Part shown: one piece after another, positions 38,477 to 64,000 of the stretch
Layout: every line of letters begins with the position of its first letter
How positions within the stretch are numbered: position 1 is the stretch's first letter
NCBI RefSeq assembly: GCF_014467075.1
Contig: NZ_AP023027.1
Location: 1,139,001 to 1,203,000 of the forward strand
Length of the DNA stretch: 64,000 nt
Direction: 5' to 3'
Source: Anaerostipes caccae L1-92
Lineage (GTDB): Bacteria > Bacillota > Clostridia > Lachnospirales > Lachnospiraceae
Translations under genes and position numbers: made by a program
The notes under the pieces: generated by a model
The model's input: the letters and a program-made list of their open reading frames with translations, nothing else
What the model was told of the DNA's origin: nothing
Database searches by the model: none

Positions 38477-39085
38477 ATGGAAAAAACATTGATCACCATC
38501 AGCCGTCAGTACGGAAGTGATGGAACAAAGGTTGCACAGGCTTTGGCGGACAAGCTGGATGTATGGTACTATAACAGAGACGTCCTGCACATGGCAGCGG
38601 AAAAGATTGGCGTAGATGATTTAGATGAAAAATCCCTCGAGGAGCTGAATTACAGAAAAAGTTCCAGATATGTGGAGGGACTGAGTGTCATGATGGGAAC
38701 ACCGGGACATATTCCGGTCTACAATCAGATGTTCAAGGAACAGTCCAAGATCATCCGCAAGCTTGCAGGATACGGATCCGGGGTATTTCTTGGAAGATGT
38801 GCAGATTATGTACTGAAAGATATGGAAAATGTTTATACAATTTATCTCTATGCAGATGATGAATTCCGTTTAAAACATCTGTCTGAGGCGGAAGGCAGGG
38901 AATTTACAAAATCTGAACTGAAGAAGGAAGATAAGACAAGAGAATCTTATTATAACTATTATACGGGACAAAAGTGGGGCGATGTTCAGAATTATGATCT
39001 GGCTGTCAACATGACAAAGCTCAGCCCGGAAGATTGCGCAGACTTAATCCTTGAATACATCGAAAAACGAAGAAAAGAAAAATAA
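38477..39085 (+). CDS. Cytidylate kinase-like family protein (copy 1)
   Basis: 202-aa P-loop protein of the cytidylate-kinase-like family (PF13189 type): LITISRQYGSDGTKVAQALA at the N-terminus, a central GYGSGVFLGRCADYVL and a helical lid ending DKTRESYYNYYTG. The loop reads GSDG, while the paralogue at 40069 keeps GSGG. The two proteins are roughly 70 percent identical by eye. Function is unknown; the family is common in gut Firmicutes and is not the essential Cmk. Confidence 0.85.
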   Translation: MEKTLITISRQYGSDGTKVAQALADKLDVWYYNRDVLHMAAEKIGVDDLDEKSLEELNYRKSSRYVEGLSVMMGTPGHIPVYNQMFKEQSKIIRKLAGYGSGVFLGRCADYVLKDMENVYTIYLYADDEFRLKHLSEAEGREFTKSELKKEDKTRESYYNYYTGQKWGDVQNYDLAVNMTKLSPEDCADLILEYIEKRRKEK

Positions 39086-39093
39086 ATAAGTTT

Positions 39094-39136
39094 AAAAAGC
39101 ATCTTGAAAGCAGTATGCCTTCGAGATGCTTTTTTG
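39094..39136 (+). terminator. Terminator after kinase-like copy 1
   Basis: AAAAAGCATCT and AGATGCTTTTT form the main stem, extended by GAA/TTC across a 10-base loop, with a T6 end. Confidence 0.82.
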
Positions 39137-39256
39137 TAAAGTGCAGCAATTCTACGATTATTTTACAATACTTTTCCGGTGTTATATGATAAATTAAAAA
39201 GGAAATGAAGTGTAGTATGCACTTGGGTATATAATGAAGAAAGACGGAAGAGAAGT

Positions 39257-39859
39257 ATGAAAAAAGAGGATAAGAAACAGGAACGCATCGAAAACTATGA
39301 GAGGACGAGAAAAGAAATGAAAGAAGCAGGGTACAAGGAATCTTCCGGGATTATCTCTATTCTGAAGGCAAACGTCATGGCACTCGCGACTGCAGGGCCG
39401 TTCTGTATTATAGCATTTATCATTTACACACTTCGCTGGGGGAAGGACGGTTTTGCCATAGACAGCAGAAATCTGGTTCTTTTTCTTGGGCTGTTCTTTG
39501 TATCGATCTTCATTCATGAAATGCTGCACGGTGCAGGATGGAGTCTGAGCTGCAAAAAGGGATGGCATAGTATTGCATTTGGTTTCATGTGGAGTTCTCT
39601 GACACCATACTGCCATTGTAAGGAGCCTCTAAAATTCAGCAGTTATGCGGTGGGATTATATCTCCCTTTTTGTGTGCTGGGTCTGGGAATATTTGCTGTC
39701 TCTCTGGCTGTGCCTAATTACAGGCTTTTCATGCTCGGAATCCTCAATATGCTCGCTGCCGGAGGGGATCTCACCATCGGATGCTGTCTTATGAAACATA
39801 AGAACGGGCTGATTCTGGATCATCCTACGGACTGCGGATTTGTATCCTTTGAAAAATGA
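39257..39859 (+). CDS. DUF3267 membrane zinc metalloprotease-like protein
   Basis: 200-aa protein with about four membrane helices and a HExxH zinc motif inside the second (FIHEMLHGAGW, about residue 95). Later histidine and cysteine residues lie in YCHCKEPL. This is the DUF3267 pattern, a putative membrane protease family. A charged N-terminal helix (1-30) precedes the first helix. It is set between two near-identical kinase-like genes, which suggests insertion of the group by duplication. No substrate is apparent. Confidence 0.85.
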   Translation: MKKEDKKQERIENYERTRKEMKEAGYKESSGIISILKANVMALATAGPFCIIAFIIYTLRWGKDGFAIDSRNLVLFLGLFFVSIFIHEMLHGAGWSLSCKKGWHSIAFGFMWSSLTPYCHCKEPLKFSSYAVGLYLPFCVLGLGIFAVSLAVPNYRLFMLGILNMLAAGGDLTIGCCLMKHKNGLILDHPTDCGFVSFEK

Positions 39860-40068
39860 TGGTTTGTGAAATCTTTACAAGAGACAGACCACTCTTATAA
39901 CAAATTATGATTGATCCGCTGAAAATGAAAGTTATTATAGCATTGTGGGAATGAATTGAGTATAATGAGAGCGAAAACTGTAGTTAAAGAAACTATAATA
40001 GTCATAAATTATAAATAAGATGGGTATCTTATGAGATAACCCAACAGCAGATCAGGAAGGAAATAAAG

Positions 40069-40677
40069 ATGGAAAAAACATTGATCACGATCGGACGCCA
40101 GCATGGAAGCGGCGGCACAGAAGTAGCAGAAATTCTGGCAGAAAAATTGAACGTTTGGTATTATAACAGGGAAATTCTGTATATGGCAGCGGATAAAATT
40201 GGATTTGATTCCTTTGATGAAGAATCTATGAAGGAGCTGAACTACAGGAAGAGCTCGAAATATATGGAAGGTCTCAGTGTCATGATGGGAACCCCGGGTC
40301 ATATTCCTGTGTACAACAAAATGTATAAAGAGCAGGGAAAAATCATTCAGAAGCTGGCTGGATACGGGTCCGGAGTTTTTCTTGGGAGATGTGCTGATTA
40401 TATCCTGAAAGACTTTGAGAATGTATATTCTGTTTTTCTTTATGCAGATGATGAATATAGGCTGAAACGTCTTGCGAAAGCTGAGGGAAGGGAAGTTACC
40501 CTTGAAGAGATGAGAAAAGAAGATAAGACAAGGGAATCTTATTACAATTATTATACGGGACAGGAATGGGGCGATGTAAGAAATTATGATCTGGCTCTGA
40601 ATATGGGAAAAACAACTGCAGAAGATGCCGCGGATATGATCCTGTCCTATATTGAAAAGCGCAGAAAAAGTAAATAA
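40069..40677 (+). CDS. Cytidylate kinase-like family protein (copy 2)
   Basis: 202-aa paralogue of the gene at 38477, with the same length and start (MEKTLITI.RQ.GS.GT) and the conserved SVMMGTPGHIPVYN and GYGSGVFLGRCADY blocks. Its P-loop GSGGTEV is the canonical form. The upstream regions of both copies share a GAATTGAGTATAAT or closely similar element, so the promoter was duplicated too. A small hairpin (TGGGTATCT/AGATAACCCA) lies 30 bp before the start. Function unknown. Confidence 0.85.
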   Translation: MEKTLITIGRQHGSGGTEVAEILAEKLNVWYYNREILYMAADKIGFDSFDEESMKELNYRKSSKYMEGLSVMMGTPGHIPVYNKMYKEQGKIIQKLAGYGSGVFLGRCADYILKDFENVYSVFLYADDEYRLKRLAKAEGREVTLEEMRKEDKTRESYYNYYTGQEWGDVRNYDLALNMGKTTAEDAADMILSYIEKRRKSK

Positions 40678-40763: not shown

Positions 40764-41528
40764 CTATCTTATTGTTTCAACAGTGATAGAATTCATACTG
40801 CAGAAATTCTCGTATTCTTCCGGAATCGGCTGATCTGTGAGAATGTAATGGATCTTTTCCAGCGGGCAGTAAGTCATCAGAGAAAAGATGCCGAATTTGG
40901 AATGATCCGCGAGAACAAAGCGTTCCATACTGTTTGCAGTGACTGCCTCCTTTACTCTGTACTCCTCTTCGGATGCATTGGTCAGACCGTTTTCCATCGA
41001 AAGACCTGTGCATGCCATGAATGCTTTTCCGATATTAAACGCTTTCAGATAGTCTGCTATTTTTACATCAACGAAAGAAAGAGTCTCTCTTTTTAAATAA
41101 CCGGGAAGAGAGATTACGGTAAGGTTTTCATACGGCAGGGCCTTTAAGGATACCTGAAGGCTGTTTGTTATGATCGTACAGCGCTTTTCAGAAATATAAT
41201 CCACCAGGTTATGGCAGGTTGTTCCGGTATCAATATAAATAATATCCCCGTCTTTTACATGATCTGCGGCAAGGCGGCAGATCGCCTTTTTTTCTTCCAT
41301 ATATTTTTCGTGGCGTTCTGCAAATGGAAGCAGCTTTTTGGAAGGAAGTGTTTCATTGAGAGTGACGCCTCCATAAACTTTTTTGATTTTTCCTGTCTTT
41401 GCAAGTGTATCGATATCTCTGCGTATCGTATTTTTAGATACCTGAAAGACATCGCATAAGGTGTCGAGAGATACCGATTTTTCTTGTATAATATACTGTT
41501 CTATTTCATCGATTCGTTTTGTACGCAT
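40764..41528 (-). CDS. DeoR-family transcriptional regulator
   Basis: 254-aa regulator with an N-terminal winged helix (LCDVFQVSKNTIRRDI, GKIKKVYGGV) and a C-terminal DeoR sensor domain (DGDIIYIDTGTTCHNLVDYI, ITNSLQVSLKAL, LADHSKFG). Such proteins respond to phosphorylated sugars; IolR of Bacillus is one of them. The start at 41528 has AGAGGA upstream, and the 11-residue longer reading is not supported. It may regulate inositol genes in this neighbourhood, but no target site was identified. Confidence 0.9.
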   Translation of the reverse strand: MRTKRIDEIEQYIIQEKSVSLDTLCDVFQVSKNTIRRDIDTLAKTGKIKKVYGGVTLNETLPSKKLLPFAERHEKYMEEKKAICRLAADHVKDGDIIYIDTGTTCHNLVDYISEKRCTIITNSLQVSLKALPYENLTVISLPGYLKRETLSFVDVKIADYLKAFNIGKAFMACTGLSMENGLTNASEEEYRVKEAVTANSMERFVLADHSKFGIFSLMTYCPLEKIHYILTDQPIPEEYENFCSMNSITVETIR

Positions 41529-41763
41529 ATATATTCCTCTTTCTGATATAGTATCTGTCATTGCTTTTATTATAGTATATTATGAGTAAATTGAAAAGAA
41601 GGAACTAGTAAGTTGTGAGAAGGTTTTTAGAGAACACAGACTGCTGGGTTTCAGATGGCGCTCAGATATGGAATTTAATGAAAGGAGGTCTTTTCCGGAA
41701 TTTTTTTCTGAGGTATAATAAAACAGAAACCAGAAATACACGGAAAGAACATCGGGGGACGGG

Positions 41764-46660: not shown

Positions 46661-47692
46661 ATGGCAGGAACAATCAAAGAAATTGCAGAACGTGCCGGAG
46701 TCTCCCGTGGTACTGTTGACCGGGCGCTGAATAACAGGGGCAGGATTAAGCCGGAAGTGGCGGAGCGGATTCTGGCGATTGCCAAAGAACTAGACTACCA
46801 TTCCAACAGAAAGTCTAGAAAGAACACGCAGAATCCGGACAAACATATAAAAATCGGAGTTATCACCCAGCTCTCCGAGGCTTCTTTTATGATTCCGGTC
46901 AAAGAGGGAATCCGGGATGCGGGGAGAGAACTTGAATATTTAGGAGTGGAACTTTTATTAAAGGATATAGAATCAGTAGATGAAGAGGCTCAGATGGAAG
47001 CGATTGATGAGTTGGAATCAAAAGGGATCGACGGCCTTGCGATCATGCCGGTGCAGTCAGAGTATGTGAGAGAACGGCTGAACCGCTTGATGGAAGAAAA
47101 AGAAATTCCGGTAGTGACATTCAACTCAGATATCGTTGGCACAAAACGAGCGTGCTTTGTAGGCCTGGATAACAAAAAAAGCGGCCGTACTGCCGCGGGA
47201 CTCATGGGAATGCTGACACGGGGAAAAGGGAAGGTCCTTGTGATCACAGGGTTTTTCACTAACAGTGTAAACAGCCTCCGTGTGGAGGGATTCGTACAGG
47301 AGATTAAGAATGCATATCCTGACATGGAACTGCTCGGAGTCCAGAGCAGTTTTGACGAGACGAGGGAAGTGCAGAAGATCATTGAGAATACGATGGCGAT
47401 CGCCCCGGATCTTTCCGGTGTCTTTGTGGCATCCGGCGGGCAGGCCGGGGTGTGTCTGGCTTTCGAGAAACTGAAACTTGAGAAACGCCCTTATGTCATA
47501 GTGTATGACGCCACGCCGAAAAATACGAAAGCACTGAAAGAAGACCGGTATGATTTTTTGATTGACCAGGAAGGATACGAACAGGGATACCGGCCTCCGA
47601 ATCTTCTGTATAACATGATCCAAAAAGGACAGATGCCGGAGACGGACCATATCTATACAGATATAAAGATAAAAAATAAATATAATGTATGA
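46661..47692 (+). CDS. LacI-family transcriptional regulator
   Basis: 343-aa regulator with an N-terminal helix-turn-helix (IKEIAERAGVSRGTVDRALN) and hinge, then a periplasmic-binding-protein-like sensor resembling ribose or inositol binding proteins (GVITQLSEASFM, LVITGFFTNSVNSLRVEGF, GVFVASGGQAG). It is the regulator nearest to the iolCDB operon, 0.8 kb downstream on the same strand. The promoter region of that operon is dense in GCGTG/CACGC motifs, which makes it the favoured candidate target. Its final Val codon and TGA stop lie inside palindromic element B. Confidence 0.92.
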   Translation: MAGTIKEIAERAGVSRGTVDRALNNRGRIKPEVAERILAIAKELDYHSNRKSRKNTQNPDKHIKIGVITQLSEASFMIPVKEGIRDAGRELEYLGVELLLKDIESVDEEAQMEAIDELESKGIDGLAIMPVQSEYVRERLNRLMEEKEIPVVTFNSDIVGTKRACFVGLDNKKSGRTAAGLMGMLTRGKGKVLVITGFFTNSVNSLRVEGFVQEIKNAYPDMELLGVQSSFDETREVQKIIENTMAIAPDLSGVFVASGGQAGVCLAFEKLKLEKRPYVIVYDATPKNTKALKEDRYDFLIDQEGYEQGYRPPNLLYNMIQKGQMPETDHIYTDIKIKNKYNV

Positions 47693-48245: not shown

Positions 48246-48461
48246 ATATTTGCGTGCTTATGCGTGTTATATAATTGTGCAATAATACTCAAGAAGTGTG
48301 TATACATTTGTGAAATGTAGCAAAAACAATCTTTTTTATAAAAAGTGCTTGCACACAAATAGCGTGCGTGATAATATAAACACATAAAGAAAAGCACACA
48401 AAACGCATTTTAAAAGAGTGAATAAAACAATAAAACACGCAAATAACACGCAGTGAGCGTG
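48246..48461 (+). promoter_or_regulatory. iolCDB promoter region with clustered GCGTG/CACGC motifs
   Basis: A promoter reads TTGCAC (48349-48354), 17 bp, TAATAT (48372-48377). Around it are seven GCGTG or CACGC pentamers in about 215 bp, including direct pairs (48252 and 48261; 48362 and 48366) and a perfect CACGC-N5-GCGTG palindrome at 48447-48461. They look like operators of a repressor, probably the LacI-type gene upstream; the two pentamers at 48362-48370 lie inside the spacer. Confidence 0.65.
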
Positions 48462-57153: not shown

Positions 57154-57236
57154 TTGACAGATAAAAATAATGGTGGTAATATAACAGTAATAATTAATTA
57201 GCATACGAACTAATGGGATGCAAATTAATTTGTATG
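57154..57236 (+). promoter_or_regulatory. etfBA promoter with shared operator
   Basis: TTGACA (57154-57159), 17 bp, TAATAT (57177-57182), then an inverted repeat at 57201-57236: GCATACGAACTAAT and ATTAATTTGTATGC. The core GCATACGAA...GGGATGCAAA matches the sites at 62839-62867 and 63014-63043 in front of the echA-pct and acd genes. Confidence 0.8.
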
Positions 57237-57322
57237 CGTATCATAGCACAGCAGTTTTTCAGAGTCAACAACTTTATTTGAAATAAACTTCGGATTAAGG
57301 CTGGGAAGGGAGTGAAAAAAGG

Positions 57323-58063
57323 TTGAACATATTGGTTTATTTAAAAGAAGTTCCGCCAAAAGAGGAACAAGTGAAATATCAGACTGCGGAAGGGATCAGC
57401 GACAGTGATAAAAATGTTTTGAAAGAAGCTCTGAATCTGAGAGATCAGGAGGGGGGGGGCACAGTGACAGCCATGGTGATCGGTCCGCCGGAAGCAGAGA
57501 AGACTGCGCGGGAGGCTTTGACATGGGGAGTGGACAGAGCGGTTCTGGTCTTTAAAAAGGAAACCGGCGATATCAGCCACAGCGCAAAACTGCTTGCCGG
57601 GGCGATAGAGGCAGAAGGTATGTTTGATATTATTCTGTGCGGCCGTCAGGCCATTGACGGGGATGCTGCCCATATGGCGGCCATAACGGCATTTTTCCTG
57701 AAGATTCCTCTGATTGCCTATTCAAAAAAAATGAAAGTTTCAGACAAGAAAATATTTAATTGGTGTATGGCTTTAGAGGGAACAGAGCGGACAGAGAGTT
57801 CTTTGCCTGCCCTGGTTCTCTCGGTAAGAGAAGACAATGCGCTGAGACACCCGAATGTTGCTGACATTATGTCCGCATATGCAGAGAGTACGGTGATTCC
57901 TGTTTCGAAGGCCGAACAGGGGAAAACAAAAAAGATCATAAAACAGGTTCGGGAGTATATACCGGATGAGGCGCCGAAAAACAGACAGATGCTGACCGGC
58001 AGAGACGAGCAGGAGCTGGCGGAAAAGCTTTGGCAGCTGATCAAAGAAAAGGAGGCCGTATGA
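57323..58063 (+). CDS. etfB: Electron transfer flavoprotein beta subunit
   Basis: 246-aa EtfB, the nucleotide-binding subunit of an electron transfer flavoprotein. MNILVYLKEVPP at the start, VTAMVIGPPEAEKTAREALTWGVDRAVL and ILCGRQAIDGDAAHMAAITAFFLKIP are family marks. The start codon is TTG behind GGGAG (57307-57311). A G9 tract at 57451-57459 encodes GGG where most EtfB proteins have only GG. It pairs with etfA downstream (4-bp overlap), and by context with the acyl-CoA dehydrogenase at 63095, probably to reduce acrylyl-CoA. Confidence 0.93.
   Translation: MNILVYLKEVPPKEEQVKYQTAEGISDSDKNVLKEALNLRDQEGGGTVTAMVIGPPEAEKTAREALTWGVDRAVLVFKKETGDISHSAKLLAGAIEAEGMFDIILCGRQAIDGDAAHMAAITAFFLKIPLIAYSKKMKVSDKKIFNWCMALEGTERTESSLPALVLSVREDNALRHPNVADIMSAYAESTVIPVSKAEQGKTKKIIKQVREYIPDEAPKNRQMLTGRDEQELAEKLWQLIKEKEAV
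57451..57459 (+). repeat. Poly-G tract (G9) inside etfB
   Basis: Nine consecutive G after Glu43; the reading frame is intact at this length. A change of one base would truncate EtfB early and probably uncouple etfA. Confidence 0.85.
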
Positions 58064-59043
58064 AGAAAACATCAAAAATTTTGATCATAGGAGAGATACA
58101 GAATCAACATGCGGCCCACGTGACAGTTGAGCTTCTGGGAGAAGGCAGGAAGCTGGCAGATTCTCTGGATGCAGAATTGATTTTGACAATCGTGGGAAAT
58201 GATGTCGAAAAAACATGTAAGGATCTTCTCAGGTATCCCGCAGACCGAATCATAGCGGCGGATCATCCAAGTCTTAAACAAAAGCAGCTGGAGACTCACA
58301 GCAGGATTCTGTATGAGATTGTTAAGGAGCAGAAACCGGATATGATTCTGGGAGGGGCAACGTTGTTCGGAAAGACACTGCTGCCGACTCTGGCCGCCAT
58401 GCTTGGAACAGAAGTGATTACGGATGCTGCCGGATTGGAGATTGACAAGGAAACAGGGGAACTGCTGGTCACTAAGCCTGCTTTTGACGGGAAGAGCATG
58501 TCTGTGGTTTCGATGCCGGAGGCTCCTGTGCAGATGGCGCTGGCAAAGCCGGGAGTATTTAAAAAGGCCTGTGAGACAGACGGCAGAGAAGGAAAGTTTA
58601 CTGCGTTTTCGGCAGACTGGCTGCAGGAGATAACAGAAAGAAAAAGAACACTGGATCTTATAAAAGAAGAAAAGAAGATTTCCCTGGAAGATGCACATAT
58701 CATTGCGGCCGGGGGAAGAGGGCTGAAAGGTCCGGAGGGATTTCGGCTGCTTTTACAGTTCGCCGAAAGGATCGGAGCACAGGCCGGATGTACAAGGCCG
58801 TGTGTGGATGCAGGGTGGATGCTTCCGGAGCAGCAGATTGGACAGACAGGGTGTATAACGAAACCGGACATTTATATAGCATTTGGAATTTCCGGGGCGG
58901 TTCAGCACATGACCGGAGTCAGGGCCGGGACAGTGATCGCAGTGAACAGTAACCCGAATGCAGCTGTTTTTAAATACTGCGATTATGGCATTGTGGGAGA
59001 TGCAAAAAAGATATTGGAAGAATTTTTGAAACTGCCGTTGTAA
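58060..59043 (+). CDS. etfA: Electron transfer flavoprotein alpha subunit
   Basis: 328-aa EtfA. The N-terminal part is ETF-fold (ILIIGEIQNQHAAHVTVELLGEGRKL). The C-terminal FAD domain has GRGLKGPEGFRLL, GCTRPCVDAGWMLPEQQIGQTG, the FGISGAVQHMTG loop and NSNPNAAVFKYCDYGIVGD. AAAGGAGG lies just before ATG 58060, which overlaps the etfB stop, so the two subunits are translationally coupled; the longer reading from 58030 is rejected. Confidence 0.95.
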   Translation: MKKTSKILIIGEIQNQHAAHVTVELLGEGRKLADSLDAELILTIVGNDVEKTCKDLLRYPADRIIAADHPSLKQKQLETHSRILYEIVKEQKPDMILGGATLFGKTLLPTLAAMLGTEVITDAAGLEIDKETGELLVTKPAFDGKSMSVVSMPEAPVQMALAKPGVFKKACETDGREGKFTAFSADWLQEITERKRTLDLIKEEKKISLEDAHIIAAGGRGLKGPEGFRLLLQFAERIGAQAGCTRPCVDAGWMLPEQQIGQTGCITKPDIYIAFGISGAVQHMTGVRAGTVIAVNSNPNAAVFKYCDYGIVGDAKKILEEFLKLPL

Positions 59044-59071
59044 AAAAGAAGACCCGGAGGACCGGATCTTC
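59042..59071 (-). terminator. Terminator of the echA-pct-permease operon
   Basis: On the minus strand GAAGATCCGG and CCGGGTCTTC form a 10-bp stem (one mismatch) with a 4-base loop, followed by T6. It may also serve etfBA from the other side. Confidence 0.8.
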
Positions 59072-59081
59072 AATGTTAAGT

Positions 59082-60389
59082 TTATAATCCAAAAGAAGCT
59101 AAGACGATAAAGATTCCGCAGGATATAAATGGTATGATAATCTGCGTAACCGCAATATCCCAGTAAGCTTCTTTATGGGTCATTTTACAAATGCCGAGCA
59201 GTGTGATCTGCGCTCCCTGATGAGGAAGTGTATCTAAAGTACCGGCTGCGATGGCGGAAATCCTGTGCACATAAGGCAGCGGGATTCCCATTTTAATATA
59301 GGTAGACTTCAAAGCATTAAAGGCAACCCCCATACCGCCGGAAGCAGAGCCGCAGGCTCCTGCACAGACAGCCACGGTGATCATTACAAACACCAGAGGA
59401 GGCATGCTCATGTCTTTCAGAGCGGCAACCAGGTCGGTAAAGCCCTGAGTTTTCTGTACAACGCCTCCAAAACCTACAACGATTGCAGTATTTAAGATAG
59501 CAACGCCGGAGTCAGAAGCACCTTTGTTAAATACGTTGATCCATTCGTTGATGCCCTTGACTCTGTTAAACATCAGAATGGTAGCCAGGGCTACACCTGC
59601 AAATACAGATGTCTCCACAGGAAGCTTCACGATGTTGAAGAGCACCAGAATGAGCACAATCGGAAGGACAGCGATAGCAACGTGGGGAAGATTTTTATCT
59701 TCATCGATGGCCATCTCTTCTTCACTCAGCTGATATTTTAAGGACTTATCGATAAAACGATATCCCTTTTTCGTAAACTTTCTTGCCCGCATTTCCAGCC
59801 AGACAAAAATCATGATAAACATAGCCGCAGTCGTGATCAGAGATGGAACAAATGCGGCTGTTGCCGGTGTGCCAAGGTTATCCATGGCAATGACATTCTG
59901 AATAGAAGGAGAACCGGGACCGCTCATGGACCAGGTCCAGCATCCGGCAGAGATTGCGGCCGGGATGAGCCTTCTTGTAAGATTCGCTTCCTTGAATAAG
60001 TTTAATGCGATTGGATAGATAACAAAAAATACAACGAAGCCACTGACTCCTCCAAAGGTCAAAAGACCGGTGATGATCATGATGATCGGTGCCACGAATT
60101 TTCCGCGGCAGAGCCCTGCGATCGCTCTGGCTATGGATTCTGCGGCTCCGGTATATTGATAAACGGAGCCGAACAGTGCGCCGACAAAGAATACGAGAAA
60201 ATACTTTGTCACGTAGTCGGATGCTGCAGGCATAAATGCATTTTTCAGCGAGTCCAGGATTGGAAGCTTAGAGCAGATGACCACGAAGATCGTGACAAGG
60301 GGAGCCAGGATCAGGGCACTCATCTGTTTAAAAGCTAAGACTCCGAACAGGACAATCGCCAGGACTAAGACTAAGATTTGTAAATTCAC
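59082..60389 (-). CDS. GntP-family organic acid permease
   Basis: 435-aa membrane protein of the GntP/CitMHS-like group with about 12 helices (LTFGGVSGFVVFFVIYPIAL, CAGACGSASGGMGVAFNALK, LDTLPHQGAQITLLGICK). Start codon is GTG with GGAGGG 7 bp upstream. It is the third gene of echA-pct-permease. In this setting it could export propionate or import 3-hydroxypropionate, lactate or 3-hydroxybutyrate; the sequence does not decide. Confidence 0.88.
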   Translation of the reverse strand: MNLQILVLVLAIVLFGVLAFKQMSALILAPLVTIFVVICSKLPILDSLKNAFMPAASDYVTKYFLVFFVGALFGSVYQYTGAAESIARAIAGLCRGKFVAPIIMIITGLLTFGGVSGFVVFFVIYPIALNLFKEANLTRRLIPAAISAGCWTWSMSGPGSPSIQNVIAMDNLGTPATAAFVPSLITTAAMFIMIFVWLEMRARKFTKKGYRFIDKSLKYQLSEEEMAIDEDKNLPHVAIAVLPIVLILVLFNIVKLPVETSVFAGVALATILMFNRVKGINEWINVFNKGASDSGVAILNTAIVVGFGGVVQKTQGFTDLVAALKDMSMPPLVFVMITVAVCAGACGSASGGMGVAFNALKSTYIKMGIPLPYVHRISAIAAGTLDTLPHQGAQITLLGICKMTHKEAYWDIAVTQIIIPFISCGIFIVLASFGL

Positions 60390-60415
60390 AAAAACCCTCC
60401 TTTATTTGTGGATTG

Positions 60416-61975
60416 CTAATCGTGTTTCAGACCCATCAGCTCATCTCTGAAAATTCTTTCATCCATAAGCTTTGGCGTACCGTCCATTTTAGGAGTGAAT
60501 CCCATATGGTCGATGATCTGTGTTTGGATATCGATGCCAGGGGCAACTTCTGTCAGATAGACACCGTCTTTTCTCAGTTCAAAGACAGCGCGCTCTGTGA
60601 TATAGAGAACCGGCTGGCCGACTTTATTTGCGTACTCGCCGCTGAACGTAATCTGTTCAACTGTATCCAGGAACTTGTTGGATTTTCCTTCCTGGTCAAC
60701 GACAAGTTTTCCGTCTTTTACCGACGTTTTTAAACCGCCTGCAGTAAAGGTTCCGCAGAAGTAGCAGCGTTTTGCATTCTGAGTGATGTTTACAAAACCG
60801 CCGCAGCCTGCGATCCTTGGACCAAATTTGCTGACATTGATGTTTCCGTCTTTGTCCGCCTGTGCGAGGCCTAAGAATGCATAGTCGACACCGCCTCCAT
60901 CATAGAAATCAAACTGGTACGGCTGGTCTAAGATACACTCGGGATTGACGGACCCTCCGAATTTGGCTCCTCCCTGAGGCACACCGCCGACAGGTCCCGC
61001 CTCTACGGTCAGAGTCATGTAATCTCCGATGCCTTCTTCATTGGCAACCATAGAGATATATTCAGGAATACCGATGCCTAAGTTGACTACGGTGTTTTCT
61101 GTCAGTTCCATGGCAGCTCTCCGTCCGATGATCTTTTTTGCGGAAAGAGGAGGATACTCAAGGCTGCTCAAAGGAATACGGAAGTCTCCGGTCATAGCAC
61201 CGTCATAGTCGCATCCCACGCACTGTTCGTGGTCTTTCATGTCTTCTGCTTCCACGACTGCATCCACATAGATTCCCGGGATCTTGACCAATTTTGGATC
61301 TAAGGTGCCGTCTGCGACGACCTTTTCCACCTGTACTACAATTTTTCCGCCGCTGTTCTTCACGGCCTGAGCCATGGTTGTGACTTCCGTTGTACAGCAT
61401 TCATGGGAAAGTGTCACGTTGCCGTGTTCGTCAGCATATGTACCCCGTATGAATCCGATGTTCAGCGGAAAAGATTTATATAATAATTTCTCTTCTCCTA
61501 AGATCTCGATCACATCTACAATGTCCTCGGTCGTAATGTCATTCAATTTGCCGCCTTCAATGCGCGGGTCGGCAAATGTATTTAATCCAACATGAGTGAT
61601 CACGCCGGGTTTATGACCGGCGATGGCACGATAGAGCTGTGCCAGAGTGCCCTGGGGCAGATTGTATCCTTCGATTTTATTGTCAAGGACCAGCTGTCCA
61701 AGCGTCGGGACCATGTTCCAGTGTCCGCCGATGACACGTTTGGTCATTCCTTCATGGGCAAAATGATCCGCACCGCTTCCGTCACGGTTTCCCTGGGCAG
61801 CAGCGTAAAATAAAGTCAGGTTTTTCGGAGAACCGGTTTCCAAAAATCTTTTTTCCAGAGCCTTTGTAAGGGCTTCCGGCATTCCGCTGGCAACAAATCC
61901 GCTGGTAGTGACGGTTGTATTATCTTCTACCAGGGCAGCTGCCTGATCTGCTGTAATAATCTTAACTTTTCCCAT
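60416..61975 (-). CDS. pct: Propionate CoA-transferase-type enzyme
   Basis: 519-aa family I CoA-transferase in which both subunits are fused. The N-terminal half has VTTSGFVASGMPEALTKAL and GGHWNMVPTLGQL; the C-terminal half has NLGIGIPEYIS and the catalytic glutamate in TVEAGPVGGVP. This length and motif set is that of Clostridium propionicum-type Pct, which moves CoA between acetate, propionate, lactate, acrylate and 3-hydroxypropionate. It would activate 3-hydroxypropionate and release propionate here. AAGGAGA precedes the ATG, 21 bp after the crotonase stop. Confidence 0.92.
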   Translation of the reverse strand: MGKVKIITADQAAALVEDNTTVTTSGFVASGMPEALTKALEKRFLETGSPKNLTLFYAAAQGNRDGSGADHFAHEGMTKRVIGGHWNMVPTLGQLVLDNKIEGYNLPQGTLAQLYRAIAGHKPGVITHVGLNTFADPRIEGGKLNDITTEDIVDVIEILGEEKLLYKSFPLNIGFIRGTYADEHGNVTLSHECCTTEVTTMAQAVKNSGGKIVVQVEKVVADGTLDPKLVKIPGIYVDAVVEAEDMKDHEQCVGCDYDGAMTGDFRIPLSSLEYPPLSAKKIIGRRAAMELTENTVVNLGIGIPEYISMVANEEGIGDYMTLTVEAGPVGGVPQGGAKFGGSVNPECILDQPYQFDFYDGGGVDYAFLGLAQADKDGNINVSKFGPRIAGCGGFVNITQNAKRCYFCGTFTAGGLKTSVKDGKLVVDQEGKSNKFLDTVEQITFSGEYANKVGQPVLYITERAVFELRKDGVYLTEVAPGIDIQTQIIDHMGFTPKMDGTPKLMDERIFRDELMGLKHD

Positions 61976-61996
61976 AGTTTATCTCCTTCATTTATT

Positions 61997-62773
61997 TTAG
62001 AAATCTTTTAAATCTGCTTTGCGTTTCTCAAGGAATGCGGTCATGCCTTCTTTTTTGTCTTCCGTAGAAAATGCCAGTCCGAATAAGTCTGCCTCTAATG
62101 TAAGTCCGCTGCTTAAATCGGTATCCATGCCTGTGTTGATCGCTTCTTTTGCAAGAGAGATGGCATAACTTCCTTTGGACATGATCTTTGCTGCCATCTT
62201 TTTGCAGTAATCAATCAGTTCTGTCTGAGGAACTACCTTGTTTGCAAGTCCGATCCTGTAAGCCTCCTCAGCATCGATCTGGTCACATGTAAAGATCAGT
62301 TCTTTTGCACGGCCTTTTCCGACTAAGCGGGAGAGACGCTGTGTTCCGCCGAATCCCGGGAGAATTCCTAGTCCTGTTTCCGGCTGTGCGAATCTTGCGT
62401 TTTCTGCGGCTACACGGATGTCACAGGCCATGGAGATTTCACATCCGCCTCCGAGTGCATATCCGTTGACTGCGGCGATCGTTACCTGAGGCATTGTCTC
62501 TAATTTAAGGAATGCTTCTTTTGCCAGCAGACCCATCTGTCTTCCTTCTGCAGGAGAGGCATTGACCATTTCAGAAATATCGGCTCCGGCCACAAATGAT
62601 TTTTCACCTGATCCTGTAAGGATAACAACTCTGATGTCCTTACGGCGGGAGATCTCGGAAAAGCACTGGTCTAATTCTGCTAATGTCTCACTGTTTAAGG
62701 CGTTTAAAGATTTTGGTCTGTTGATTGTAACTACTGCGATCTCGTTTTCTACTTCCATTAATAAATTGTTCAT
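61997..62773 (-). CDS. Enoyl-CoA hydratase/crotonase, probable 3-hydroxypropionyl-CoA dehydratase
   Basis: 258-aa crotonase-fold enzyme. The oxyanion-hole segments GEKSFVAGADISEM and ALGGGCEISMACDIRVA and the two catalytic glutamates (GGCEIS; PETGLGILPGFGGTQRL) are in place. The start at 62773 has AAGGAGG 8 bp upstream; the 10-residue longer reading is not supported. First gene of a minus-strand operon with pct and the permease. Between pct and an EtfAB-linked acyl-CoA dehydrogenase, the likely substrate is 3-hydroxypropionyl-CoA giving acrylyl-CoA; crotonyl-CoA is an alternative. Confidence 0.92.
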   Translation of the reverse strand: MNNLLMEVENEIAVVTINRPKSLNALNSETLAELDQCFSEISRRKDIRVVILTGSGEKSFVAGADISEMVNASPAEGRQMGLLAKEAFLKLETMPQVTIAAVNGYALGGGCEISMACDIRVAAENARFAQPETGLGILPGFGGTQRLSRLVGKGRAKELIFTCDQIDAEEAYRIGLANKVVPQTELIDYCKKMAAKIMSKGSYAISLAKEAINTGMDTDLSSGLTLEADLFGLAFSTEDKKEGMTAFLEKRKADLKDF

Positions 62774-62838
62774 TGTAAATCCTCCTTGAAATAACATATA
62801 CATTGCACTTGATCAGCTCTTGTTAGAAAATTAACATA

Positions 62839-62911
62839 TTGGCGTACAAATATTTGGGATACAAAATATTATTTATGCTTCTAATATGGACTATTTTTGG
62901 TTGCTTGTCAA
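62839..62911 (-). promoter_or_regulatory. echA-pct-permease promoter with shared operator
   Basis: On the minus strand TTGACA (62911 to 62906), 17 bp, CATATT (62888 to 62883), and 16 bp further the operator; on the plus strand it reads TTGGCGTACAAATATTTGGG followed by ATACAAAAT (62839-62867). It aligns with the etfBA site at about 20 of 30 positions. Confidence 0.8.
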
Positions 62912-62970
62912 TGGTTTATCAATATGTTTTATTTAAATTGTATAATTATATAAAAAAATATAAAAGTTTA

Positions 62971-63043
62971 TTGACAATATGCACAAGGAGTGATATATTT
63001 AGCTTACAAAATATTGGCATACAAATATAGGGAAATAAAATGG
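62971..63043 (+). promoter_or_regulatory. Acyl-CoA dehydrogenase promoter with shared operator
   Basis: TTGACA (62971-62976), 17 bp, TATATT (62994-62999), then TTGGCATACAAATATAGGG (63014-63032) followed by AAATAAAATGG. The GC of the motif lies 18 bp after the -10, against 19 bp at etfBA. A partial half-site TTAGCTTACAAAATA precedes it. Confidence 0.8.
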
Positions 63044-63094: not shown

Positions 63095-64000
63095 ATGAAT
63101 TTTGAGTTAACCGAACAGCAGGCAGCCATTCAGGAGACAGCAAGAAACTTTGCTCAGACGGAGTTACAGCCGGGAGTGTTAGAGAGAGATGCCAACAGTG
63201 AATTTCCGGTAGATCTCTATAAGAAGATGGGAGATCTTGGACTGATCGGACTTCCTTATCCGAAAGAAGTCGGAGGCCAGGGAGCCGATTACCTGTCTTA
63301 TGTATTGGCAGTGGAGGAGGTCTCTAAAGTAGATGCTTCTGTGGGGATTTCATATTCTGTATCCACTTCCTTATATGGAGGAAGTATTATGAATTCTGAC
63401 GCTCCGGTCGAGAAAAAGAATGAATTTCTGGCACCGGTATTGTCAGGACAGCATTTCGGATCTTTCGGTCTCACAGAACCGAATGCGGGATCTGATGCAG
63501 GAGGATGTGTCACAGTTGCGGAAAGAGACGGAGACGAGTACATATTAAACGGTATGAAATGCTTCAATACGAACGGGCCTTTAGCCGATTATACGGCGGT
63601 GTATGCCCTGACGGAACCTGAGAAGAAAGCCAAGGGACTGTCCTGTTTCGTGGTGAAGAAAGGAACTCCCGGATTTTCAGTGGGCAAAGTGGAAGATAAG
63701 ATGGGAATCCGCTCCGCACAGGTTTCAGAGATGATACTGGAAAACGTACGGGTGCCGGCAGAAAATATGATCGTTCCTTCCGGAGACGGATTTAAACTGG
63801 CGATGAAGACTCTGGACGGAGGCCGTATCGGTGTTGCTGCACAGGGACTTGGAATTGCAGAAGGTGCATTTGAGATTGCAAAAGAATACTTAAAGACGAG
63901 AGAACAGTTTGGCAAACCATTATACAGAAACCAGTATCTTGCATTTAAGATGGCGGAACTTGAAATGGAAATTGATGCCGCAAAACTAATGCTTTACAAA
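63095..64000 (+). CDS. Acyl-CoA dehydrogenase (probable acrylyl-CoA reductase), 3' end outside window
   Basis: The first 302 residues of an acyl-CoA dehydrogenase. MNFELTEQQAAIQETARNFAQTEL is the N-terminal helical domain; SFGLTEPNAGSDAGG, LNGMKCFNTNGPLADY and the MGIRSAQVSEM segment make the FAD and substrate site; GGRIGVAAQGLGIAEGAFE and KTREQFGKPLYRNQYLAFKMAEL begin the C-terminal domain. The catalytic glutamate and the end of the protein lie beyond base 64000. AAGGAG is 8-10 bp upstream of the ATG. With etfBA, pct and the crotonase under the same operator type it probably reduces acrylyl-CoA to propionyl-CoA; a butyryl-CoA dehydrogenase is the alternative. Confidence 0.9.
   Translation, partial: MNFELTEQQAAIQETARNFAQTELQPGVLERDANSEFPVDLYKKMGDLGLIGLPYPKEVGGQGADYLSYVLAVEEVSKVDASVGISYSVSTSLYGGSIMNSDAPVEKKNEFLAPVLSGQHFGSFGLTEPNAGSDAGGCVTVAERDGDEYILNGMKCFNTNGPLADYTAVYALTEPEKKAKGLSCFVVKKGTPGFSVGKVEDKMGIRSAQVSEMILENVRVPAENMIVPSGDGFKLAMKTLDGGRIGVAAQGLGIAEGAFEIAKEYLKTREQFGKPLYRNQYLAFKMAELEMEIDAAKLMLYK

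Follow-up and report, generated by a model that had tools for sequence, protein, structure and literature searches.

At the downstream end of the window, the 64-kb stretch of Anaerostipes caccae L1-92 DNA analysed here, lie three transcription units of a predicted inositol-to-propionate branch. On the plus strand, etfB (57323..58063) and etfA (58060..59043), encoding the beta and alpha subunits of an electron transfer flavoprotein, gave sub-cut-off matches to the NCBIfam EtfB and acryloyl-CoA reductase gamma models and to NF042970 and other EtfA models, respectively. The second unit, on the minus strand, comprises an enoyl-CoA hydratase gene, echA (61997..62803; NCBIfam short-chain enoyl-CoA hydratase, 381 bits vs. 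a cut-off of 394), a CoA-transferase gene, pct (60416..61975; sub-cut-off matches to the NCBIfam FadX and 3-oxoacid CoA-transferase models) and, as its last gene, a permease (59082..60389; Pfam Na_H_antiporter PF03553, 36.9 bits vs. a cut-off of 23). An acyl-CoA dehydrogenase gene (acd, ACD2) occupies 63095..64000 on the plus strand and extends beyond the window to genome position 1203237; its match to the NCBIfam acryloyl-CoA reductase model NF042972 (338 bits vs. a cut-off of 640) was scored on the in-window part. Matched by name and gene order, pct, echA and acd would be the counterparts of OxcT, EcdH and AcaD of A. rhamnosivorans in the available text of PMC8355322.

The promoters of these units share one design, as an earlier, sequence-only reading had claimed and as the letters confirm: TTGACA, a 17-bp spacer and an AT-rich -10, namely TTGACA-17-TAATAT for etfBA (57154..57182, plus strand), TTGACA-17-CATATT for echA-pct-permease (62883..62911, minus strand) and TTGACA-17-TATATT for acd (62971..62999, plus strand). 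That reading had also placed a related site 16–19 bp past each -10. Such sites are present, but they are rows of 12-bp imperfect palindromes rather than single operators. The repeat unit, a putative operator, is TTWGCATGCWAA, and copies in the window keep three to four of its six pairs. The arrays hold three copies at etfBA and two each at echA and acd, in steps of 15–16 bp, and begin at the -10 or 15–17 bp beyond it.

At etfBA, the putative operator palindromes are TTAGCATACGAA (57198..57209; 12.9 bits with the motif matrix, kept in genomes G004 and G009), ATGGGATGCAAA (57213..57224; 11.6 bits, 15 bp after the first) and TTTGTATGCGTA (57229..57240; 10.4 bits, 16 bp after the second), the last with weaker counterparts in the relatives (5.3 bits in G004 and 4.3 bits in G009). 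The inverted repeat with GCATAC/GTATGC ends described there earlier was found as stated, with 13 of 18 arm positions complementary. At echA, the distal palindrome is TTGGCGTACAAA (62839..62850; 12.6 bits) and the promoter-proximal one TTGGGATACAAA (62854..62865; 12.8 bits). These two arrays start downstream of the -10 as placed earlier; at acd, TTAGCTTACAAA (62999..63010; 12.0 bits) abuts the -10, so that the array starts earlier than had been seen, and is followed 15 bp later by TTGGCATACAAA (63014..63025; 15.0 bits).

The sequence-only reading held that no regulator gene adjoins these units, and supposed that a TetR, MarR or LacI gene might follow the acyl-CoA dehydrogenase. The first statement was wrong and the second was borne out: a marR gene lies at genome positions 1203443-1203856, 205 bp behind acd and just beyond the window edge, and its promoter itself carries related sites. 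The 137-aa product has a MarR winged helix-turn-helix domain (Pfam PF01047, 6.5e-15, 55.2 bits vs. a cut-off of 24.6), and an AlphaFold2 model (pLDDT 94.5) predicts a MarR fold, with MarR proteins as the top PDB matches. The promoter, TTGACA-17-TATGAT, is followed by two palindromes of 13.4 and 8.9 bits, which are looser and 24 bp apart and form no 15-bp pair; in G008, the best site at this promoter reaches just 4.4 bits. The regulator was unreported in the open-licence literature searched, and the available part of PMC12888040 names none.

A further unit with such an array is a second acyl-CoA dehydrogenase-etfBA operon (ACD1-etfBA) at genome positions 1128219-1131200, 68 kb upstream of the window etfBA, whose promoter, TTGACA-17-TACTAT, carries four palindromes at steps of 15, 15 and 15 bp. 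We considered it as the butyrate (bcd) operon and rejected this, since a different acyl-CoA dehydrogenase (52–55% identity) is present in 11 of 11 genomes of the genus and ACD1 in four of 11. The ACD1 ortholog (≥89%) is confined to the same four genomes as the MarR ortholog. The regulon of three units proposed earlier stands insofar as all three share arrays, and falls short in number: the putative regulon, as read from sequence, has at least five units, namely etfBA, echA-pct-permease, acd, ACD1-etfBA and marR. The rnfC promoter is a candidate addition. In G000, G004 and G009, a perfect palindrome lies inside its TTGATT-17-TATCAT spacer, and it is absent in G008 and in the seven genus genomes without MarR; one of the latter, G006, carries instead a strong palindrome of another sequence (15.1 bits), located farther upstream of rnfC. 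As a rough estimate puts the expected number of perfect sites at about 1.6 per genome, rnf is no more than a candidate.

Specificity resides in the pairing of copies. When the matrix was built without the promoter being tested, the best 15-bp-spaced pair at etfBA, echA, acd or the fourth operon was equalled by none of 500 random sequences, and that of the marR promoter by 64 of 500. Pairs of at least 13 bits at 15 bp occur in the window at the etfBA, echA and acd promoters only and in stretch L021 (19.5 kb) at the fourth operon only, with none in the remainder of L022 or anywhere in L023. Single 12-bp copies are unspecific: 15 places in the window reach 10 bits, seven of them within the three promoters. 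A genome-wide search with a one-site pattern (≤3 mismatches) proved useless (151 + 163 matches vs. 145 + 158 for the reversed control). The count for a 15-base pattern (≤1 mismatch; 10 + 17 matches vs. 12 + 21) is uninformative as well, because the control gives as many or more. Its matches fall on the five units at seven of 27 places; 17 of the other 20 lie wholly or partly within open reading frames, and the remaining three are at 801042, near unrelated genes, and, overlapping each other, at the rnfC promoter (two places). In 16 promoters from other genomes, picked after many had already been inspected, the spacing peaks at 15 bp (mean 5.9; runner-up 2.2 at 31 bp); here the divergent G008 echA and ACD2 regions were separated, and the test was also repeated on 14 regions.

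The earlier proposal had been made to depend on the motif occurring at orthologous promoters, and the sites were found again there in three relatives. This conservation is weak evidence because the four Anaerostipes genomes include three close relatives. A tandem-site model, trained on the four MarR-bearing genomes and scoring only the best 150 first-look candidates per genome, was run on 11 genomes of the genus. The four with a MarR ortholog (77–100% identity) gave best E values of 8.6e-5 to 5.0e-4 and 7–10 matches each at E ≤ 5 (a place matched on both strands counting twice), and the seven without MarR gave 0–3 matches with a best E of 0.139. The ACD1 promoter of G008, which lies outside the training set, scored E 5.0e-4 with three palindromes 15 bp apart; at the G008 echA promoter, just a single copy is clear (12.9 bits), and the best 15-bp pair reaches 13.5 bits. 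Two scans of the regions upstream of housekeeping-type acyl-CoA dehydrogenases (6 + 5 loci) found no two sites 15 bp apart.

Beyond the genus, the sites recur in Coprococcus, Eubacterium and Clostridium loci bearing the same MarR. A relative of EchA, Pct, ACD2 or the permease lies near MarR in 13 of 62 ortholog loci, including those of Eubacterium, C. symbiosum-type, C. algifaecis and C. tyrobutyricum; the other count to set beside this is 45 of 62 loci in which, as far as the DNA reaches, every enzyme looked for is missing (some of these loci are short contigs), and among these 45 the 14 scored marR upstream regions held no pair above 3.4 bits. In 11 loci of other genera, a pair of at least 13 bits occurs in 11 of 37 target upstream regions (second genes of operons included) vs. 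5 of 80 control regions, a weak statistic (rank test, p = 0.026). After removal of controls sharing DNA with a target, 3 of 76 remain (p = 0.020), two of them being etfB-like genes behind marR that fell below the identity cut-off. Among the 399 controls from the full set of 41 scanned loci, 12 score at least 13 bits; they include the gene that follows marR in Clostridium sp. OS1-26 (19.4 bits). The sites fall in the -35/-10 spacer at Eubacterium ACD1, C. transplantifaecale marR and C. algifaecis echA. In C. catus, outside the training set, the top genome-wide match (E 0.0069) falls at an ACD1 ortholog, which sits on a different contig, and an array is likewise present at a broken copy of ACD2. 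For C. tyrobutyricum, A. neopropionicum and C. drakei, the highest-ranking model matches lie away from pathway genes.

Taken together, we consider it likely (probability roughly 0.8) that an autoregulated MarR encoded behind acd represses at least five units of the predicted inositol-to-propionate branch through rows of 12-bp palindromes at 15–16 bp. The earlier interpretation of a single repressor is thereby supported at the level of sequence, with MarR as its presumed bearer. MarR dimers would line up next to one another along the array, covering the DNA from the -10 to the beginning of the transcript, and obstruct RNA polymerase. They would be released as a CoA thioester of the branch accumulates, acryloyl-CoA or propionyl-CoA being the first candidates, and the CoA-transferase, hydratase, two acyl-CoA dehydrogenases, two etfBA pairs and permease would then be switched on jointly.

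Published induction data bear on this model. According to the available text of PMC8355322, the matched CoA-transferase, hydratase and acyl-CoA dehydrogenase and the second operon of A. rhamnosivorans (the matching is our own) are induced up to 6440-fold on inositol; this agrees with the co-regulation proposed earlier for those units, and the window etfBA is not among the proteins named there. On lactate, C. catus induces a hydratase and permease and two acyl-CoA dehydrogenases (PMC8914356, in its available part), which by our own mapping would belong to three site-bearing units. Its lactate (lap) cluster is induced together with those units and yet holds no site, the highest score, upstream of the cluster's pct, being 6.4 bits, so that another regulator must act there. 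The induction common to inositol and lactate users suggests that a CoA thioester might release MarR.

The arrays could be read by some other protein. A LysR-type gene (298 aa) adjoins ACD1, directly upstream of ACD1-etfBA, in G000, G004 and G009, and its product might read the motif and activate all units. We regard this as highly improbable: the gene was not found beside ACD1 in G008, although the three-copy array is intact there, and the stretches around the ACD2 and echA units of four relatives hold no LysR relative. The usual position from which LysR proteins act is upstream of the promoter, whereas the arrays sit at or past the -10; the promoters here are also close to consensus, requiring no activator. 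Only marginally better placed, and still very unlikely, is a regulator of the inositol cluster for which the motif would be its own. A scan of 10 window proteins included the products of a DeoR-type (window 40764-41561, presumably IolR), a LacI-type (window 46661-47692) and an AraC-type gene, and iol and propionate proteins rise together in A. rhamnosivorans, as the available text of PMC8355322 reports. However, no 15-bp pair of at least 13 bits occurs elsewhere in the window, iol promoters included (a single palindrome of 10.5 bits lies at 48249, upstream of iolC), and the motif also occurs near MarR in C. catus, Eubacterium and Clostridium loci. That the likeness of the three sites reflects chance or duplicated AT-rich promoters is scarcely credible, even with three of four Anaerostipes genomes being close kin, given the leave-one-out result at four of five promoters, the spacing peak in other genomes and the C. 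catus arrays found independently of training.

It is also conceivable, if doubtful, that MarR and the arrays are paired as we propose, but that MarR activates or fine-tunes, or that it responds to the product, propionyl-CoA, or to a redox signal instead of an intermediate on the substrate side. Some MarR proteins are activators (PMC5487221, in its available part), whereas the sites here lie on the -10, in the -35/-10 spacer or just downstream, which are repressor positions. For a redox signal speak C6 and C41, invariant in 63 of 63 aligned MarR orthologs. The one-cysteine redox position is that of OhrR C15 and MgrA C12; in a profile alignment, C6 falls elsewhere, and opposite the redox cysteine of OhrR, MgrA and SarZ stands the invariant N8, two places past C6.

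Among known systems, the motif matrix agrees with the SlyA-type 12-bp palindrome, the E. coli / Salmonella consensus being TTAGCAAGCTAA (PMC5797941, available part); both have TTAGC/GCTAA ends, and TTWGCATGCWAA differs mostly at the centre. In the same source SlyA activates two E. coli operons through H-NS antagonism, whereas here 2–4 copies in 15–16 bp steps lie at the transcription start of catabolic operons. CouR, FerC and HcaR, MarR-family proteins that govern hydroxycinnamate genes in response to CoA thioesters (PMC5487221, as far as available), likewise control genes of a CoA-thioester pathway; the predicted structure resembles CouR (CouR-DNA 6c2s, TM 0.88; also 5cyv, CouR with p-coumaroyl-CoA). 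However, alignments show 20–27% identity, and the present case involves a short-chain aliphatic pathway, array operators and a putative ligand. IolR (PMC8355322, available text) shares the substrate and the gene cluster, but its candidate in the window is DeoR-type and no window array lies beyond the propionate units. LctA (LutR-type) of the Anaerobutyricum soehngenii lct operon is likewise associated with a lactate operon of a gut bacterium that includes etf and acyl-CoA dehydrogenase genes, but is another regulator type with other genes; the available part of PMC8914356 gives the C. catus units no named regulator.

The outcome is a named gene, an exact putative operator and a testable ligand. 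A bolder extension, which we hold to be unlikely as a whole, is that one MarR lineage across Clostridia senses the acryloyl-CoA/propionyl-CoA branch for any feed (inositol or lactate), its dimers stacked on phased 15-bp arrays at acryloyl-CoA reductase promoters and released by acryloyl-CoA, possibly via C6 or C41, with a reach to the Rnf operon in close Anaerostipes relatives. Propionate formation from inositol and from lactate would be tied to one candidate sensor, and the paired 15-bp model may serve to search further gut genomes for acryloyl-CoA reductase operons, as it did in C. catus.

The sequence-only reading had described a common promoter architecture for three units of the window, namely etfBA (57323-59043, plus strand), the permease, CoA-transferase and enoyl-CoA hydratase genes (echA-pct-permease; 59082-62803, minus strand) and the acyl-CoA dehydrogenase ACD2 (acd; 63095 onward, plus strand), and TTGACA, a 17-bp spacer and an AT-rich -10 are indeed present at all three. 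It had further proposed a common operator and one repressor encoded elsewhere. Its observation was right and its interpretation holds, with corrections. The genome is a single contig of 3.59 Mb, of which the window spans 1139001-1203000; a MarR-family gene (1203443-1203856, promoter TTGACA-17-TATGAT), seen by reading beyond the window end, begins 443 bp outside it and probably supplies the missing regulator gene. A second operon, ACD1-etfB-etfA (genome 1128219-1131200, promoter TTGACA-17-TACTAT), was reached via a pattern match.

A symmetric matrix fitted on these five promoters of the source genome yields a 12-bp palindrome, TTWGCATGCWAA, of about 10 bits from 13 sites. With positions numbered from the start of the -35, its copies lie at 44, 59 and 75 (etfBA), 46 and 61 (echA), 28 and 43 (acd), 28, 43, 58 and 73 (ACD1-etfB-etfA), and 36 and 60 (marR), and those at etfBA, echA and acd are each imperfect, with three to four of six pairs. 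When one promoter was left out at a time and its best 15-bp pair was compared with 500 random sequences, none of the 500 reached the score at etfBA, echA, acd or ACD1, while 64 of 500 did so at marR, which has no pair 15 bp apart. Pairs of at least 13 bits were confined to the three window promoters and ACD1 among the stretches searched (the window, the 19.5-kb stretch L021 with the ACD1 operon, and the stretches L022 and L023).

The same spacing stands out in 16 upstream regions of other genomes, which were chosen after many had already been viewed and include some close relatives. Averaged over the regions, the pair score is highest at 15 bp (5.9; next, 31 bp with 2.2), and with 14 regions it is 5.9 at 15 bp versus 2.5 at 30 bp, both comparisons being computed with the overlapping echA and ACD2 regions of one Anaerostipes genome (G008) separated. 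The observed 15-bp pair was reached by none of 200 shuffles in 11 of the 16 regions, one of which, G008 echA, was scored via the adjacent ACD2 array and has an own best pair of 13.5 bits; one or two of 200 shuffles reached it in three regions, and five and seven in the other two.

Within the genus, the arrays are kept at the orthologous promoters of G004 and G009, and in G008 at ACD2 and ACD1. The third etfBA copy is weaker in G004 and G009, the G008 echA promoter has one clear copy, and the G008 ACD1 promoter, outside the model's training, has three copies at steps of 15 and 15. A MarR ortholog (77-100%) occurs in four of 11 genus genomes, and ACD1 at 89% or more occurs in the same four; strong matches of a paired-site model also fall there, although this model included sequences of these genomes, which favours them. 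A LysR gene adjoins ACD1 in three genomes and was not found beside G008 ACD1. G008 ACD2 (L056:5848-6983) reads as a number of shifted pieces with a stop, while its array is intact.

EtfB/EtfA (57323-59043) share only 66-69% identity with the pair found in the matching place in G004 and G009, unlike the permease, CoA-transferase, EchA, ACD2 and MarR, which are 95-99% identical to their counterparts; from these identities, the etf pair looks like a replacement, or fast change, under a retained operator. Elsewhere in the window, a DUF3267 putative zincin peptidase gene lies between two cytidylate-kinase-like genes (38477-40677), and several GCGTG(T/C) repeats with one 10.5-bit palindrome (TTTGCGTGCTTA) lie upstream of iolC (48249-48453), where another regulator may bind. 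A perfect palindrome, TTTGCATGCTAA, sits in the TTGATT-17-TATCAT spacer upstream of rnfC (genome 1648550-1648561; L138), a name assigned by reading the sequence alone. It occurs in the source genome, G004 and G009 and is absent from G008 and from the seven genus genomes lacking MarR, one of which, G006, carries another strong palindrome at a more upstream position; this Rnf complex gene is a candidate regulon member only.

Sites overlap the -10, sit in the -35/-10 spacer or start at most 17 bp past the -10, and since they lie at or near the -10 of near-consensus promoters, they fit a repressor, whose binding and direction are predicted. MarR dimers bind palindromes in successive major grooves, according to the portion of the source used (PMC5487221). 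A 15-bp step corresponds geometrically to about one and a half helical turns, which would set adjacent dimers on roughly opposite faces. The AlphaFold2 model of the protein, which is 99% identical to the MarR of Anaerostipes hominis BG01, has a confident MarR fold (pLDDT 94.5), with close folds including MepR and OhrR on DNA, PcaV and CouR. All 63 aligned orthologs have both C6 and C41, but C6 was required by one of two search patterns; leaving the first row aside, seven of the other 62 lack that pattern and still have C6. C6 does not fall at the redox position of OhrR/MgrA. This regulator counts as a new MarR-family member, set apart as a variant by its phased array, and after one narrow literature search we judge arrays of this kind to be new.

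When GTDB contigs were scanned using the MarR alignment, 62 loci were recovered. A relative of EchA, Pct, ACD2 or the permease is within reach of marR in 13, and an ACD1 relative alone, with or without etf genes, in four; the remaining 45 have none of these within reach. The gene orders include EchA-Pct-ACD2-MarR in Eubacterium callanderi and ACD1-EtfBA-EchA-Pct-ACD2-MarR in Eubacterium sp. The paired-site model was run on 13 genomes; 11 had not contributed to its training, although C. transplantifaecale is close to a trained genome. The best match fell at a pathway unit in five of these 11: at ACD1 on another contig in C. catus, at etfB (37% identity) in E. callanderi, at ACD1-etf in Eubacterium sp., between permease and ACD2 in C. 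transplantifaecale, and at ACD1-etfB in C. algifaecis. Their E-values are modest (0.007 to 0.13), and the evidential weight of the matches is in their location. The best match fell elsewhere in another five (G087, G114, C. tyrobutyricum, A. neopropionicum and C. drakei); in C. tyrobutyricum the echA-pct promoter ranks second (E 1.98). In Dysosmobacter (L221, G123 C1:274208) the best paired match is just upstream of a MarR paralog (31% identity).

The array expected before ACD2 in C. transplantifaecale (L225/L105) sits immediately after the permease gene, at a distance of about 2 kb from ACD2 and separated from it by an ORF of about 370 codons, perhaps an insertion. Clostridium sp. OS1-26 has a 19.4-bit pair (L114:10532) upstream of the gene directly behind marR, with the sought enzymes not nearby.

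The ACD1-etfB-etfA operon fits AcaD-Etf (AR1Y2_1050 to 1052) of the A. rhamnosivorans inositol-to-propionate pathway, a mapping of our own onto the pathway as given in the part of PMC8355322 consulted. For lactate, the C. catus GD/7 transcriptomes, in the part of the study used here, have a hydratase with a gluconate-type permease, two unlinked acyl-CoA dehydrogenases and the lap cluster induced (PMC8914356). We infer the correspondence between the study's tags and genes from names and order. In C. catus VPIC661, marR adjoins the hydratase-permease pair, which has a weak site (10.4 bits; 15-bp pair reached by seven of 200 shuffles), and ACD1 has a 23.5-bit pair. A broken ACD2-like gene near the lactate lap cluster (L254:5591-6600) has a promoter array with pairs of 19.0 and 17.5 bits, and the lap promoter itself has no array (best, 6.4 bits). 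The only part common to the lactate and inositol routes is the end from acryloyl-CoA to propionyl-CoA, and it is on this basis that we would venture a guess at the signal.
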